Positions 279 through 12,213 of a stretch of DNA of 36,891 nucleotides are shown here, one piece after another. The stretch spans positions 1-36,891 of the forward strand of contig MEXR01000035.1 of NCBI GenBank assembly GCA_001773775.1. The letters are read 5' to 3'. The translations under genes were made by a program, and so were the position numbers. The notes under the pieces were generated by a model. It did no database searches. It was not told where the DNA came from and saw only the letters and a program-made list of their open reading frames with translations. How positions within the stretch are numbered: the stretch's first letter is position 1; each line of letters starts with the position of its first letter. This stretch comes from Candidatus Amesbacteria bacterium RIFOXYB1_FULL_44_23 (GTDB lineage Bacteria > Patescibacteriota > Microgenomatia > CAZETR01 > Amesbacteraceae).

Positions 279-2382
279 CAACTTCGTAAAGTTTTGTAGA
301 TCCGTATTCAAACCTCAACCTGCCCAAACTCGACAGTGTTGTTTCGTTTAGATTCAGATATTTTCCTCTTTCAGACCAACCCACCACCACATACTTTACT
401 TTGTACTTTTTCAATAATTCTTGCTTCTTAACCGGATCAACCCCGGTATATATCTCCGTAACATCGGCCGATCTTTTTCCAACCGGCTCGTACCCTCCTC
501 GCCACAACCATTCATGAACTGCCCAACCCACCACGGTAGGTAATCCGGTAAATGTCGAAATCCTATTGTAGTCAGTATAGCTATCACCAGGAGCTTCAAG
601 AATCACTGGATGATTTTTTTTGTCAACATTGGCATTCAGCCAATTAATTACCTGAAAATCTTCAGGGTATTTTTCCTCAAGCCACGATAGTCCGTACAGA
701 CCTTTGTATTCCTTCAGGGATCCAAAATATGATCTCACTGAAAAATATGGATATATGGAAACCAAAATCAGCAGCGGAAATGCAAAAATCAAAAACACCT
801 TAGTTAAGAGCTTATGATTTTTTTGTACAACCAAACTTACCAACGTATAGCCAGAAACAAACGACATTAGTATAAAGGCCTGATATCCAAGCTTAAACAT
901 TGTATTGCTCCTGAAATGTAATGGATAAATGTCTTTAAAGTAAAAAAATTCTGGAAACACAATCAATAGCGCTGAAAATACAGAAATTATTAATAGCAAC
1001 TTTCTCGTTTTATCGCCCTTTTTAACAAAGGAGGCCAGTCCAATTGCCGCGTAAGCAAAGAAACCCCAGAGAACAACAAGCATCCACAATTCTGATTTCT
1101 GACATTTTTCTACTCCTTCAAACAACAGCGGGCCAATTTTCCTGTTTTCTAGTAAAGCTGGAGGACAATTAATTGCCACCCCAGACACAAACGGCTTGAA
1201 AGTTACCATAAATGGAATAACTGTAATTAAAAATGTGATCAAAATTGGAAGGATCTGTTTACCCACTAGAACTATCACCTTTTTAATATTTTCAAACCCG
1301 GACCAATTATTTATAAATTTAAAAAACATCCACAACCCAATATAAATTGGTCCATCGAGAGCATTTGTCATAAACGCCAATCCAGATAAAAATCCATAAA
1401 TAATCTGTATTATCTCTACTCTTTTTTTATCGGTCTCTTCCCACAATAAAATATTCAAGGCTAATAAAATTAGAGCAATTGGTATAGCCAGCACGTGTCC
1501 ATGAATATCCGAAACCACGAACGAATAAGACGGGAATTCATGAATCGAATATGGAATAAACCTGGTGGCGTTCGGGTACCAATAAGTATTCCACCCATCC
1601 AAAAACTCCTCCTTGTTAAATAAGTTAGACCAAATTTGCCAAAAGGGTGGAGGTGAGTCTACTGTGTACCCCCTAGTAAATGCATAAACACTATGCAGAT
1701 TTCCAGACAGCGTCACCAGCCAGGCAATAAATATTGCCCCAATTAAGGCGGTTTTTGGCGAAAGTTTTGAAAGAATTTTGCGTCCCATCACAAAGCTTGT
1801 AGTAAATGTTACTGAAAACAGCGTCGCCAACATCAAATTAAATCCAAAAGAAAGACTCACTCCAGTTAACTTCACCAGCACAGCCATTGTTAGGTGCCCA
1901 AAATAGTAATAATTTATAGGTTGGCCAGAAAACCACATATCCTTGGGAGGAAAATATCCGCCGTTTAATATTGATTGAGTAAACCCAAAATCCATGAACT
2001 TTTCCAAACCGTTGATCGTCGGTTCGTGTGCTTTTATCCAAGACCAAAACAACAAACAAAACAAAAACAATAACTCTTCAACTAAAATTTCCTTCCAGGA
2101 TTCCCTATAGGCATCTGAATTTTTATGTTTAAACATTACCCATCCGCTCAAACTTGCCAAAATTATCATCGAAATAATAATTAAGCCAAGCCCAAACGGA
2201 GCGATACTCGTAATTGCCATCAACCAAACCAGATACGAGACAATCAAAAGACCTATGGGCTTTGCCAGTAACCACTTACCCTTCCATGTAGGAAATAAGA
2301 AATTTACGATCGGTTTGGCAAGCAGACCCAATATCCAGATCCCGGCCCACCATTTTATTGCTAAAATACCATCAGTAAGCAC
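268..2382 (-). CDS. Polytopic membrane protein, DUF2298 / Chlor_Arch_YYY-like
   Basis: 704 aa, many TM segments, YYYFGH motif typical of DUF2298; GTG start. Confidence 0.8.
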   Translation of the reverse strand: MLTDGILAIKWWAGIWILGLLAKPIVNFLFPTWKGKWLLAKPIGLLIVSYLVWLMAITSIAPFGLGLIIISMIILASLSGWVMFKHKNSDAYRESWKEILVEELLFLFCLLFWSWIKAHEPTINGLEKFMDFGFTQSILNGGYFPPKDMWFSGQPINYYYFGHLTMAVLVKLTGVSLSFGFNLMLATLFSVTFTTSFVMGRKILSKLSPKTALIGAIFIAWLVTLSGNLHSVYAFTRGYTVDSPPPFWQIWSNLFNKEEFLDGWNTYWYPNATRFIPYSIHEFPSYSFVVSDIHGHVLAIPIALILLALNILLWEETDKKRVEIIQIIYGFLSGLAFMTNALDGPIYIGLWMFFKFINNWSGFENIKKVIVLVGKQILPILITFLITVIPFMVTFKPFVSGVAINCPPALLENRKIGPLLFEGVEKCQKSELWMLVVLWGFFAYAAIGLASFVKKGDKTRKLLLIISVFSALLIVFPEFFYFKDIYPLHFRSNTMFKLGYQAFILMSFVSGYTLVSLVVQKNHKLLTKVFLIFAFPLLILVSIYPYFSVRSYFGSLKEYKGLYGLSWLEEKYPEDFQVINWLNANVDKKNHPVILEAPGDSYTDYNRISTFTGLPTVVGWAVHEWLWRGGYEPVGKRSADVTEIYTGVDPVKKQELLKKYKVKYVVVGWSERGKYLNLNETTLSSLGRLRFEYGSTKLYEVATD

Positions 2383-2388
2383 ACTGCC

Positions 2389-2396
2389 ATTATAGT
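2389..2396. promoter_or_regulatory. Overlapping divergent -10 elements (minus TATAAT 2394-2389; plus TATAGT 2391-2396)
   Basis: Each hexamer is followed by exactly 6 nt and then a start codon (GTG at 2382 on minus, ATG at 2403 on plus). Confidence 0.5.
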
Positions 2397-2402
2397 CAAA
2401 CT

Positions 2403-4004
2403 ATGATTAAGTTAAAGACCTACGCTTGGATTACGGCTCTTGTTCTGGTTATTGCGACTATCTCTTTTTGGCTTATGTTTCATACTTTCTCCTATGATAA
2501 TGTCAACAAACAGCTTTTGATATCCTCAAAAATTTACAGTGATTTTGCAAGCCACATCCCTCACATTCGCTCATTCTCTTATGGAAATAACTGGCCACCA
2601 CAACTTCCGATTTTTCCCGGAGAAAAGACGCGTTATCACTATCTATTTTTTGCCGTTGTCGGATACTTAGAAAGAATCGGATTGCCGATTAACCTTGCAC
2701 TCAATATCCCCAGCGCTCTTGGATTTTTGGCCTTGTCACTCTTAATATTCATTACCGGCTCCAAACTATTTTCTTCATTAAAGGTAGGGCTGCTATCAAC
2801 GATTTTTTTTCTTTTTAACGGATCATTTTCATTTGTATCATTTTTCAATAAACATCCGCTTTCTTCCAATAGTGTTAAAGAAATCATCTCCAACGTGGCC
2901 TTTCCCTCTTTTGGACCTTGGGATGGGGGACCAATCGCCGCATTTTGGAACTTAAACATCTATACAAACCAAAGACACCTTGGCCTATCCTTCGCCATTG
3001 CCATGTTGGCGATATACATTTTAACCACAAAAAAAAGCCAACTAATACATCTGACCGGTTTTTTAATTGGATCACTTCTTCTCATAAATCAAGCCGCATT
3101 TATTATTGCCTCAGCCTATTGTCTTTGGATATTTACAACAGACAGCTCAAAAAGACGAAACATCCTTTTTGCTTTGTTCGGCATTGTTCCTTGGGTGTTA
3201 ATAATGGCTGACACCATAAACGCTTCCCCGACAATCAAACTTAATCCATTCTTTCTCATGCCAAAGCCGATTAACATATTTAATTTTATTAAATATTGGG
3301 TTTTAAATTTTGGAATTCATTTCTTTTTAATTCCTATCGGAATGATTTTTTCTCCCCGATCAGCCAAAAAAATTATAGTGCCCACCCTGCTTCTTTTTAT
3401 AGCACCCAACGTTTGGCAATTTTCTCCGGATATGATTAATAATCACAAGCTACTAAATTTCTACACGATTATCGGATCGATGTTTTCTGCGGGGTTTCTG
3501 GTTCATGTTTGGAAATTCAACCCACTGGCTAAGTTGGTGGCGGTTATCATAAGTACTTTTCTGATTCTGGGGGGAGTAATAGATCTTTTCCCAATTAAAA
3601 ATGACTACTATATTAAATTAAACGATATAGGCAACAACCAGCAGGCCGATTTTTATCTCATTCACACTTCGCCCTCCGACATCGTCCTGAATAGTCACTG
3701 GCTCTATCATCCGGCATCTCTTGCTGGAAGATCCATATATAACGGTTATTCGTATTTCACCTGGTCATATGGGTATGATCAGACAACTAGAGAAATATTT
3801 ACCAAAATGATTTATCAGTCAGAATCAAAATCTCAAGCCTGTTCTTTACTAAAGATAACTGACATCAACCATGTTCAGCTGGGAAAGTATCATGAAACCT
3901 TCATTCATCCGAATTGGAAAATGTGGCTGTCGGAATTTAAACCTGAATTTTCTGACCCCGGTTTAGGGGAATATGTATACTCAGTAAAGGAAAACTGTCC
4001 ATGA
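2403..4004 (+). CDS. Polytopic membrane protein, GT-C/DUF2298-like
   Basis: 533 aa, multiple TM segments; the TRYHYLFF segment resembles the YYY region of the divergent neighbour. Confidence 0.65.
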   Translation: MIKLKTYAWITALVLVIATISFWLMFHTFSYDNVNKQLLISSKIYSDFASHIPHIRSFSYGNNWPPQLPIFPGEKTRYHYLFFAVVGYLERIGLPINLALNIPSALGFLALSLLIFITGSKLFSSLKVGLLSTIFFLFNGSFSFVSFFNKHPLSSNSVKEIISNVAFPSFGPWDGGPIAAFWNLNIYTNQRHLGLSFAIAMLAIYILTTKKSQLIHLTGFLIGSLLLINQAAFIIASAYCLWIFTTDSSKRRNILFALFGIVPWVLIMADTINASPTIKLNPFFLMPKPINIFNFIKYWVLNFGIHFFLIPIGMIFSPRSAKKIIVPTLLLFIAPNVWQFSPDMINNHKLLNFYTIIGSMFSAGFLVHVWKFNPLAKLVAVIISTFLILGGVIDLFPIKNDYYIKLNDIGNNQQADFYLIHTSPSDIVLNSHWLYHPASLAGRSIYNGYSYFTWSYGYDQTTREIFTKMIYQSESKSQACSLLKITDINHVQLGKYHETFIHPNWKMWLSEFKPEFSDPGLGEYVYSVKENCP

Positions 4005-5692
4005 TTTCAAATAATAAGTCCATTACATTGTTATTATTAATCTTGACCGTGGGTTTCTTCTTGCGAATTGTCGGCCTGAATTGGGACCAAGACCAGCATC
4101 TTCACCCCGACGAAAGATTCATGACCATGGTGACTGACAAAATCGTTTGGCCGGGATCATTAATGGAGTATTTCAACACCCGCACCTCAACCGCCAATCC
4201 GCACAATATTGGTTTTCCATTTTTTGTTTACGGCACCTTCCCGCTTTTTTTAATTAAAGCCATTTCCCAGGTCTTTAACCAAGATAATTACATTTACATA
4301 ACCTTAATTGGCCGATTTATATCAGCTGTGATGGACTCGTTCAATATTTTATTAATTTATTTGATTATTTCCCGTCTCACCAAACGCATTGTTCCTTCAA
4401 TCTTAGGAGCATTTATATACGCCACCAGTGTTTTGCCTATTCAGCTGTCACATTATTTTGCCACCGACACCCACCTTGTTTTTTTTCAAGTATTAACCTT
4501 CTATTTTCTACTTAAGCGAAAGCCTGTACTGGCAGGATTAGCCTTCGGGCTTGCTTTGTCATCAAAAATAACTGCTGTGTTTTTACTTCCGTTAATTTTA
4601 ATAACCCTCATTTATCAGCACCTGAAACACAAAAACCTCAAATCCTTTGTCATTTCCGGAATACTTATTTTGTTATTTTCAGGTTTTACCTTTAGAGTTT
4701 TTCAACCATATCTTTTTGACGGCGTCTTTTCTCTTAATCAACTTGTGATTAACAACTGGAAACAACTTAAAGCATTTGATGACCCAACGGGCTGGTTTCC
4801 CCCAGCCGTTCAATGGATAAAATCAATTCCTGTTATATTTCCGCTAGAAAATATTTTTTACTGGGGTTTGGGTCCGATTCTCAGCTTACTTGCGTTGTAT
4901 TCAATCGTTAAATCTATTTTAAACTTTAAAAAAGAGCCAATTTTGATGTTTATCAGCCTCTGGATAATAGGTATATTTTTATATCAATCATTCTCATTTG
5001 CCAAACCAATGAGATATTTTTATCCTCTGTATCCATTGGTTTCGGTAATTAGTGGTGTTGCCCTCTATGACTTAATCTTAAAAAGTAAGCACAAATTAAC
5101 AATTGGCATTTTTTGTGTATTGAACCTGATTTGGCCTTTTTCATTCATATCTATATATTTACAACCACACACTCGTGTCCAGGCCACATATTGGATTTAT
5201 AATAATATTCCCGAAAACAGTATTATTTCCTGTGAATATTGGGATGACTGTTTACCTTTGGGCGGTGGTTTAGGGTATCGGTTTATAGAACTTGATCTTT
5301 ACAAACAAGCAGACACCGAGGCTAAAATGACCGATATCTACAAGCGCTTATCACGGATTGACTACTTAGTACTTTCCAGTAACCGTCTATATGGTTCAAT
5401 TATGACAGTTCCCGAAATGTACCCCAACACAACCAAGTTTTACAACGATTTATTTGCGGGTAACCTTGGCTTCGTTAAGGTTTCTGAATTTACCTCCCGC
5501 CCAACTTTTCCCGTCCCGGGCTTAAGGCTCTGTCTTGCCCCGATGTTTATTAATTACGGAAAAGTTGCTCACAAAGATCAGCAGTGCACTTCAACTGGCA
5601 TCAGTTTTGTTGATGATTATGCTGACGAATCACTTACAGTCTACGATCATCCCAAGGTCATTATTTTCAAAAAAATTACTTCAGTCCTCTGA
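4001..5692 (+). CDS. GT-C fold glycosyltransferase-like membrane protein (GT39/PMT_2-like)
   Basis: 563 aa; N-terminal LRIVGLNWDQDQHLHPDERF typical of GT-C enzymes; start overlaps the upstream stop (ATGA). Confidence 0.7.
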   Translation: MISNNKSITLLLLILTVGFFLRIVGLNWDQDQHLHPDERFMTMVTDKIVWPGSLMEYFNTRTSTANPHNIGFPFFVYGTFPLFLIKAISQVFNQDNYIYITLIGRFISAVMDSFNILLIYLIISRLTKRIVPSILGAFIYATSVLPIQLSHYFATDTHLVFFQVLTFYFLLKRKPVLAGLAFGLALSSKITAVFLLPLILITLIYQHLKHKNLKSFVISGILILLFSGFTFRVFQPYLFDGVFSLNQLVINNWKQLKAFDDPTGWFPPAVQWIKSIPVIFPLENIFYWGLGPILSLLALYSIVKSILNFKKEPILMFISLWIIGIFLYQSFSFAKPMRYFYPLYPLVSVISGVALYDLILKSKHKLTIGIFCVLNLIWPFSFISIYLQPHTRVQATYWIYNNIPENSIISCEYWDDCLPLGGGLGYRFIELDLYKQADTEAKMTDIYKRLSRIDYLVLSSNRLYGSIMTVPEMYPNTTKFYNDLFAGNLGFVKVSEFTSRPTFPVPGLRLCLAPMFINYGKVAHKDQQCTSTGISFVDDYADESLTVYDHPKVIIFKKITSVL

Positions 5693-9700: not shown

Positions 9701-10240
9701 TTAGTTTGCTTTTTCGGCAGTTAATCTAAATCTGATGCCGTTAATGCTATCGTTTGTCAACGCTGACACGTCTACACTTGCCCATTTCAGATCAGCAGAC
9801 ATGGAGGCCAATAATTGACCCATGACTCTTTCATCTAAAGTGACCGCCGAAATCGCCAATCCCTTAGGGGAGACAGATCTAACCTTCATTGTTATCTCCA
9901 CCGGCACCGTTTGTTCCAAATAATCCAAAGCGTCGACCACTTCTCCTCGGGTGTTTAAGATTTGTTCAACCAGTCTCACTTTCTTCTGTACTGCCAAAAA
10001 TTCCTGCTGCTGGCCTTCCTGTAATTGCAAAAAACTTACCTGTCCGTTGATTTGCTCATTCAAATTTCTTAAATCTTCATCAAGTTTGAATCTGGATAGA
10101 AAGGCCAAAATTACCACCAACTCAGTCAAAATGATAATGTATCGACCCGTAGTTACGGCCCATTTCAAGAATCGACCCCAAAAACTGGATTCAAAATCCG
10201 AAGGAGGCAACAGATTCACTTTGGGACTGGGGGCAGACAT
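9701..10240 (-). CDS. PilN-like type IV pilus assembly protein
   Basis: N-terminal VNLLPPSDFE followed by one TM, typical of PilN; precedes a PilO-like gene. Confidence 0.65.
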   Translation of the reverse strand: MSAPSPKVNLLPPSDFESSFWGRFLKWAVTTGRYIIILTELVVILAFLSRFKLDEDLRNLNEQINGQVSFLQLQEGQQQEFLAVQKKVRLVEQILNTRGEVVDALDYLEQTVPVEITMKVRSVSPKGLAISAVTLDERVMGQLLASMSADLKWASVDVSALTNDSINGIRFRLTAEKAN

Positions 10241-10542: not shown

Positions 10543-12213
10543 ATGCGGGAACTTATCAAAAACGGATCTTCACTTCTCTTTCGGCGTCAAACCAATATTT
10601 TGTCTGCAGCTTTCGTAATTATGGCTACCTATGCAGCCGCTCACTTGATTGGTTTGTTAAAAACCCGCCTGTTAATCAGCGTATTTTTTGGCGACAAAGC
10701 GAACCTTTTAGATGTCTATTATGCCGCTTTCGTCATTCCCGACACTCTCTTCCAGCTTTTGGTGATCGGATCTTTGTCGGCAGCTTTTATTCCGGTATTT
10801 TCCAGGCTCCTGACAAAAAAGGAAGACGAGGCTTGGTACGTAGCCGGAGTGTCGCTAAACTTGGTCTTAGTCTCTTTCACCATCCTCTCCATACTCATCT
10901 TTATTTTTGCTCCCTGGCTATCTCGACTAATTGCTCCCGGATTTGATTCCCATCAGATATCTACCATGACTTCTTTGTTAAGGGTCATGTTGACCGCTCA
11001 GATTTTCTTTTGCATTTCAGGTTTTCTCACCGGCATAATTCAATCACATCAAAGATTTTTGATTCCCGCCCTAGCGCCCATTGTCTACAATTTGGGAATA
11101 ATCCTCGGAACCATTTTCCTAACACCCTTTTTCGGCATTTTTGGTCCTGCCATTGGCGTAGTCATTGGAGCTGCCCTGCATATGTCTATCCAGCTGCCAC
11201 TCGCCTTCAGGTTGGGTTTTAGATTTATACCCGCATTTTCATTTACTCACGCCGGAATAAGGGAGATCGTTCACCTAATGCCTCCCAGGGCTTTGGCCTT
11301 AGGTATTGACCAGATAGAACAGTTCATTGCCGTCATCCTTTCCTCATTGTTGCCATCGGGCTCCCTTACCATGTTTAACGTTGCCCGTCTGTTATATGCG
11401 CTCCCTATGTCCTTGTTTGGTGTCACCATAGGTCAAGCTGCCCTCCCCGCGCTTTCTCGGTTATCTGGCGAAGCTGACCGAAAAACTTTTCGTCGTACAC
11501 TTCTGGATTCGCTTCTCCAAATAACTTTTTTCACCCTACCAACCAGCGTATTGTTTATCGTCCTTCGTGTCCCTATTGTTCGTATAGTATTTGGAGCCAA
11601 ATCGTTTCCTTGGTCTGCCACCATTCTCACTGGTAAGATTTTAGCCATTCTTTGTATATCCGCCACTTTTGCATCCCTGATGCAATTATTAATCAGGGCC
11701 TTTTATGCGCTTCACGATACTAAAACACCGCTGTTAATAGGAATTTTTTCAGCGATATTCGACGTCATATTAGGGATATTCCTGGTTAAGTTCCTAAATC
11801 TTGGTTCTGTGGGGCTCGCTTTGGCCATTTCCCTTACTGCCATAATTGAAACCATACTGTTGTTTAGTATCATTTTCCCCAAAATCAGATCTGACAACTG
11901 GACCACCGCCAGATTCATAATTTCTTTTCTTAAAATTACCATCACGGGCTTGATAACCGGACTTAGTTTGTGGGTACCCATGCGCTTATTGGATAAATTT
12001 GTTTTTGATACCACCCGGACTCTTCCTTTAGTCGCCCTGACGGCAATAACCTCTCTTATTGGTTTTTCGGTCTACCTCCTTCTGTCCTATTTTTTCAGGG
12101 TAGAGCAATTAAAAACCTTTATTCTGTTAGTAAAAAGAATGTCCGATATCAAACAAACATTATTGCCTCAAAGTAAAGAAGCCTTAATGGTTTCAGCTTC
12201 GGATCAGAATTAA
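10543..12213 (+). CDS. murJ: Lipid II flippase MurJ/MviN
   Basis: 556 aa polytopic; VIPDTLFQLLVIGSLSAAFIPVFS typical of MviN. Confidence 0.9.
   Translation: MRELIKNGSSLLFRRQTNILSAAFVIMATYAAAHLIGLLKTRLLISVFFGDKANLLDVYYAAFVIPDTLFQLLVIGSLSAAFIPVFSRLLTKKEDEAWYVAGVSLNLVLVSFTILSILIFIFAPWLSRLIAPGFDSHQISTMTSLLRVMLTAQIFFCISGFLTGIIQSHQRFLIPALAPIVYNLGIILGTIFLTPFFGIFGPAIGVVIGAALHMSIQLPLAFRLGFRFIPAFSFTHAGIREIVHLMPPRALALGIDQIEQFIAVILSSLLPSGSLTMFNVARLLYALPMSLFGVTIGQAALPALSRLSGEADRKTFRRTLLDSLLQITFFTLPTSVLFIVLRVPIVRIVFGAKSFPWSATILTGKILAILCISATFASLMQLLIRAFYALHDTKTPLLIGIFSAIFDVILGIFLVKFLNLGSVGLALAISLTAIIETILLFSIIFPKIRSDNWTTARFIISFLKITITGLITGLSLWVPMRLLDKFVFDTTRTLPLVALTAITSLIGFSVYLLLSYFFRVEQLKTFILLVKRMSDIKQTLLPQSKEALMVSASDQN

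Follow-up and report, generated by a model that had tools for sequence, protein, structure and literature searches.

The question raised by this locus is whether the 20 bp that separate two head-to-head membrane protein genes constitute a single promoter, built on one shared -10 box and giving rise to leaderless mRNAs in both directions. The locus lies near the beginning of a stretch of 36,891 nucleotides (hereafter, the window), which is a part of contig 35 of a 1.11-Mb genome in 62 contigs. The closest named holders of the same gene pair belong to Candidatus Amesbacteria, and further out the pair is found in Woese-, Gottesman-, Levy-, Shapiro- and Daviesbacteria; these named relatives place the host, an uncultured ultra-small bacterium, in the Microgenomates branch of Patescibacteria.

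Gene content of the divergent locus

The minus-strand gene (268–2382) encodes a 704-aa membrane protein of the DUF2298/TIGR03662 (Chlor_Arch_YYY) type, as evidenced by matches to PF10060 (E=1.4e-94) and TIGR03662 (E=3.6e-138). The plus-strand gene (2403–4004) encodes a 533-aa membrane protein, termed here ORF533, for which no sequence match was found in Pfam, NCBIfam or PDB. An AlphaFold2 model of ORF533 (pLDDT 88.9) retrieved DPY19, the oligosaccharyltransferases OST/AglB/PglB and ArnT as Foldseek matches, and its predicted structure resembles GT-C-type glycosyltransferases. The ORF533 family is widespread in Microgenomates and contains an invariant NIYTNQRHL stretch. The next plus-strand gene (4001–5692) encodes a 563-aa PMT-type glycosyltransferase (PF13231, E=8.4e-10); it overlaps ORF533 by 4 nt as the second gene of a plus-strand operon, and the sequence upstream of its start at 4001 contains no -10 box.

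Structure of the 20-bp spacer

Direct reading of positions 2380–2405 gives CAC-ACTGCC-ATTATAGT-CAAACT-ATG, where ATTATAGT (2389–2396) is a near-palindrome. On the minus strand it reads TATAAT (2389–2394), a candidate -10 hexamer for the DUF2298 gene, and on the plus strand TATAGT (2391–2396), a candidate -10 hexamer for ORF533; the two hexamers have the 4 bp at 2391–2394 in common. Each of them is followed by a gap of 6 nt (2383–2388 on the minus strand and 2397–2402 on the plus strand) and then by a start codon, GTG at 2380–2382 for the DUF2298 gene and ATG at 2403–2405 for ORF533. Both codons are the first possible starts after an in-frame stop, and the N-terminus of the DUF2298 protein aligns with its orthologs, its first residue showing offset 0 to the ortholog start in seven of the eight listed divergent orthologs. 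The predicted transcription start sites coincide with the start codons, i.e., with the G of GTG and the A of ATG, so that the 20 bp between positions 2382 and 2403 correspond to a predicted start-to-start distance of 21 bp. In both boxes the first T is located at -12, placing a TANNNT element about 12 bp before the start, as is characteristic of leaderless genes. Thus, the coordinates, the two hexamers with their 4-bp overlap, the 20-bp gap and the 6-nt spacings given in an earlier note on this DNA are all correct.

The same note saw no convincing -35 element, in agreement with our data: at a spacing of 16–18 bp the best hexamers match the consensus at two of six positions on the plus strand and at three of six on the minus strand, and a promoter scan of the region returned 0 sites. 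A TGn extension is likewise missing on either side, and the site thus has neither of the features (a -35 or TGn) of a canonical sigma-70 promoter. No Shine–Dalgarno (SD) core is present upstream of the GTG at 2382 or the ATG at 2403.

When the 20-bp spacer was shuffled, 0.09% of trials placed boxes with at least five of six matches at a distance of exactly 6 nt on both sides, and 0.26% did so when distances of 6–8 nt were allowed. These frequencies by themselves are modest evidence, since the two boxes, being overlapping, are mutually dependent: the near-symmetry of the hexamer means that once TATAAT is present its overlapping partner comes nearly free. For this reason, the weight of the argument is on the genome-wide and comparative evidence rather than on the focal site.

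Leaderless signature in the host genome

Genome-wide statistics were collected for 823 kb of the host genome, taken as stretches. Among 2,868 candidate starts, TANNNT boxes with at least four of six matches to TATAAT end 6 nt before the start in 158 cases and 7 nt before it in 94 cases, compared to about 45 for each of the other gaps, whereas the control set of internal in-frame start codons gives a flat profile without a TANNNT peak. Strict boxes (at least five of six matches) located 6–7 nt upstream precede 162 of 795 long frames, and the logo of this set demonstrates TATAAT with a weak TG extension (extended -10) and a slight surplus of well-matching -35 hexamers. The pattern TATAATN6-7ATG has 79 occurrences in the genome, and its reversal has 17. 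There is no enrichment of SD cores and no peak of them before starts of the same set, though the anti-SD of the 16S rRNA is intact. The 16S rRNA gene (G000:C40:15984-18261; L146, L268) spans 2,278 bp against a model of 1,533 positions and probably carries an insertion of about 0.7 kb.

Within the window, genes that could be the first of a transcript tend to carry the box, and the genes of the cluster at 21–32 kb are without it. Another divergent pair in the window (9701–10240 on the minus strand and 10543–12213 on the plus strand) has TATACT and TATAAT 6–7 nt before the starts; these boxes are about 300 bp apart and unshared. Beyond this genome, TATAATN6-7ATG outnumbers the reversed control pattern in many, though not all, of the 116 genomes of the phylum that were scanned. 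The strongest signature among the 116 belongs to a 0.7-Mb genome, G475 (175 occurrences versus 15 reversed). Altogether, these sequence statistics indicate that leaderless initiation is a general feature of the host genome, and that the focal site would represent two such starts placed back to back.

Conservation in orthologous gene pairs

A divergent DUF2298/ORF533 pair with a short spacer is present in ten genomes, including the focal one, which mostly represent different genera. The respective proteins share about 36–57% identity, and the spacers range from 20 to 54 bp. Although these genomes are related, their spacers have diverged in both length and sequence, and no sequence is conserved among them beyond the hexamers. 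Boxes with at least five of six matches located 6–8 nt from the start were identified on 18 of 20 sides, including all ten DUF2298 sides and eight of ten ORF533 sides; in 20,000 rounds of shuffling, which preserved base content only, the mean was 0.70 and the maximum 6. For pairs with such boxes on both sides, the shuffled spacers gave a mean of 0.04 out of ten and a maximum of 2. The comparison with relatives that the earlier note proposed as a check came out in favor of its interpretation, both sides being boxed in eight of ten pairs. The symmetrical 6-nt spacing, however, is not fixed, varying between 6 and 8 nt, and the boxes do not overlap in four of ten pairs. Among the six pairs with overlapping boxes, three (the focal pair, G010 and G005) have a 4-bp overlap with the core ATTATA[AG]T, and three have a 2-bp overlap, with ATTATATAAT in G003 and ATGATACAAT in G004 and G044. 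Two further pairs possess separate boxes 13–14 bp apart, and the other two have a conforming box on the minus side only.

The order of the two genes alternates between head-to-head and co-directional among Microgenomates lineages. We compared the divergent pairs (L081–L087, L098 and L111) with 20 co-directional ones (from loci L091–L119), assigning ortholog starts from the reading frame and from homology at the N-terminus, a procedure that leaves some choice for ORF533. A start-adjacent box precedes ORF533 in 8 of 10 divergent versus 1 of 20 co-directional loci (Fisher p=6e-5), and the DUF2298 gene in 10 of 10 versus 3 of 20 (Fisher p=1e-5).

Recurrence across the class

We scanned 280 genomes of the class for the strict palindromic layout CAT-N6/7-ATTATAAT-N6/7-ATG (CATN6-7ATTATAATN6-7ATG), corresponding to the 21-bp register, and identified 46 sites in 43 genomes, whereas the reversed pattern and the same core with 12–13-nt gaps gave ten sites each in the same genomes. 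Of 30 retrieved sites, 22 have frames of at least 60 codons opening from both start codons, compared to none of ten sites with the control spacing. The 23-bp register with ATTATATAAT yielded 35 sites against 0 for its control in these 280 genomes, and 27 of 30 are doubly open. By protein clustering, the 49 doubly open sites fall into 40 gene-pair types, and the shared layout has thus arisen many times. The earlier note considered a single element giving leaderless mRNAs in both directions to be unusual; in this group, the layout in fact recurs at dozens of gene pairs. For the 18-bp register, 194 sites were found versus 55 for the control, but of 30 sites just 9 were open on both sides; this pattern is too loose, and we rejected it as a doubly leaderless configuration.

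The strict ATG–ATG palindrome has no match in the host genome itself, because the focal site uses GTG and a second site has an 8-nt gap. This second shared palindromic -10, again ATTATAAT, is located at L162 (G000:C56, 5460/5484), where the distances to the two starts are 8 and 7 nt. Judged by eye, its flanking divergent genes resemble a GT2-type and a GT-C-like glycosyltransferase. The 21-bp register has 0 matches in nine leaderless-rich genomes elsewhere in the phylum, and the recurrence therefore applies to the class rather than to the whole phylum. G475 also has zero matches for this register, despite having the strongest leaderless signature.

Among the 101 divergent pairs of the host genome, 41 are separated by no more than 60 bp, and 12 are doubly leaderless by the same signature, compared to 10.3 expected if the two sides were independent. 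There is thus no excess coupling of the two sides, and nothing indicates selection for sharing as such. The pattern is most simply explained if leaderless starts, being common, end up on one symmetric -10 when two of them lie back to back, without specific selection for sharing.

Proposed mechanism and alternative explanations

Taken together, the genome-wide leaderless signature, the orthologous pairs and the recurrence support the earlier proposal of a bidirectional, doubly leaderless promoter, and it is quite probable, in our view, that these 20 bp function as a minimal promoter of this kind. A sigma-A-type RNA polymerase would bind ATTATAGT in either orientation and melt the near-palindrome as a -10 element, with RNA synthesis predicted to begin 7 nt past the hexamer, at the first base of GTG on the minus strand or of ATG on the plus strand. 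Both leaderless mRNAs would probably be translated without an SD sequence, via 70S ribosomes or a similar leaderless route. Since the overlapping boxes would admit only one polymerase at a time, the two orientations are expected to compete, making the site a common control point at which the DUF2298 gene and the ORF533–glycosyltransferase operon vie for initiation. The upstream DNA of each promoter would consist of the first codons of the opposite gene.

Several observations speak against this interpretation. The plus hexamer (TATAGT) departs from the consensus, and both a -35 and TGn are missing on the two sides; since the leaderless promoters of this genome, taken together, do exhibit a weak TG extension of the -10 and a number of -35 matches, the focal promoter may be weak; a low basal rate is probable because of the missing -35. 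Moreover, the relatives vary in spacing, with four of ten spacers lacking two overlapping boxes at 6–8 nt.

The main competing possibility, which we regard as unlikely, is that leaderless transcription genuinely starts in one direction only. The second hexamer would then be a by-product of symmetry, and its gene would be served by a promoter that escaped detection within the opposite gene. The near-symmetry of TATAAT, which makes the second box almost free, is compatible with this scenario, as are the weaker plus box and the 18-bp register, where many sites are open on one side only. However, boxes on both sides at 6–8 nt recur in most relatives, and those located 13–14 bp apart in some pairs cannot be mutual by-products; nor was a sigma-70-like promoter or an SD sequence found nearby.

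A chance origin, in which TATA-like words happen to lie at fitting distances in the spacer and both genes have ordinary leaders, is highly improbable. The AT-richness of the spacer and the frequency of short divergent spacers in this genome, noted above, are compatible with it, but it is at odds with the focal shuffle frequency of 0.0009, with the genome-wide peak at the same spacing, and with the conservation of boxes across genera and their loss in co-directional orthologs. We attach a similarly small probability to an operator role, in which the near-palindrome would also or mainly be bound by a regulator controlling both genes. Divergent genes with a common palindrome frequently share a regulator, and an inverted repeat is located in the overlapping promoters of M. 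tuberculosis lysG/lysE (PMC5648196). Against this, the core of the palindrome coincides with the -10 consensus, relatives conserve nothing outside the hexamers, and the occurrence of the same core at about 40 unrelated gene-pair types fits polymerase better than a specific regulator.

If the bidirectional leaderless promoter is real, about 20 bp would suffice to express two operons without leaders or ribosome-binding sites, which would help explain gene packing in reduced genomes. Gene finders relying on SD motifs are then predicted to misjudge starts in this group, and the locus would provide a clean natural system in which to test both the competition between polymerases at bidirectional promoters and leaderless translation in Patescibacteria. 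Whether a single symmetric -10 firing leaderless mRNAs both ways is the standard head-to-head arrangement in Microgenomates, and perhaps in other Patescibacteria, we consider evenly balanced. In that case, no control unit described for two genes would be more compact: the orientation of the polymerase would act as the switch, and the first codons of each gene would serve as upstream promoter DNA of the other.

Comparison with known systems

In the open-licence literature searched, we found no report of leaderless mRNAs produced in both directions from one -10 and no study of leaderless mRNA in CPR/Patescibacteria. Both ingredients are known, and it is their recurrent combination in Patescibacteria that was not found in this literature. 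Warman, Grainger and co-workers (PMC12825309, PMC10268837) established that bacterial promoters can be bidirectional through a symmetric -10 common to both strands; they define such promoters by divergent start sites 7–25 bp apart, the preferred distances being 18, 10 and 23. In E. coli, the two orientations are argued to be mutually exclusive (PMC12825309). The focal site likewise has overlapping -10 elements on opposite strands, and its predicted distance of 21 bp falls within the 7–25-bp range but is not among the preferred distances, whereas the ATTATATAAT register of its relatives corresponds to 23 bp, a common distance in those promoters. In contrast to them, both focal RNAs are predicted to begin at start codons and both are protein-coding; leaderless mRNAs are not mentioned in the text of either paper.

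Bacterial leaderless genes have been characterized by a TANNNT box lying some 12 bp upstream of the start codon (Zheng 2011, PMC3160421; in M. tuberculosis, Cortes 2013, PMC3898074), and the passages describing such genes name Actinobacteria, Deinococcus-Thermus, Aquificae, Chloroflexi and others. The focal site resembles the genes described there in the box and its distance, in having neither an SD nor a conserved -35, and in the use of both ATG and GTG. These passages treat one direction and do not mention candidate phyla. In M. tuberculosis, the divergent genes lysG and lysE have overlapping -10/-35 elements and a second lysE promoter that is leaderless (PMC5648196); they differ from the focal pair in the 108-bp spacer, in the LysR-type regulator, and in that the leaderless promoter is not one of the overlapping ones. 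In the same species, both genes of the divergent pair prpD/Rv1129c are leaderless, with start sites at 1254630 and 1254510 (PMC3898074). Like the focal pair, these are head-to-head genes with transcripts starting at the start codons (predicted in the focal pair), but their start sites are 120 bp apart and represent two separate promoters, whereas the focal genes would rely on one shared -10.
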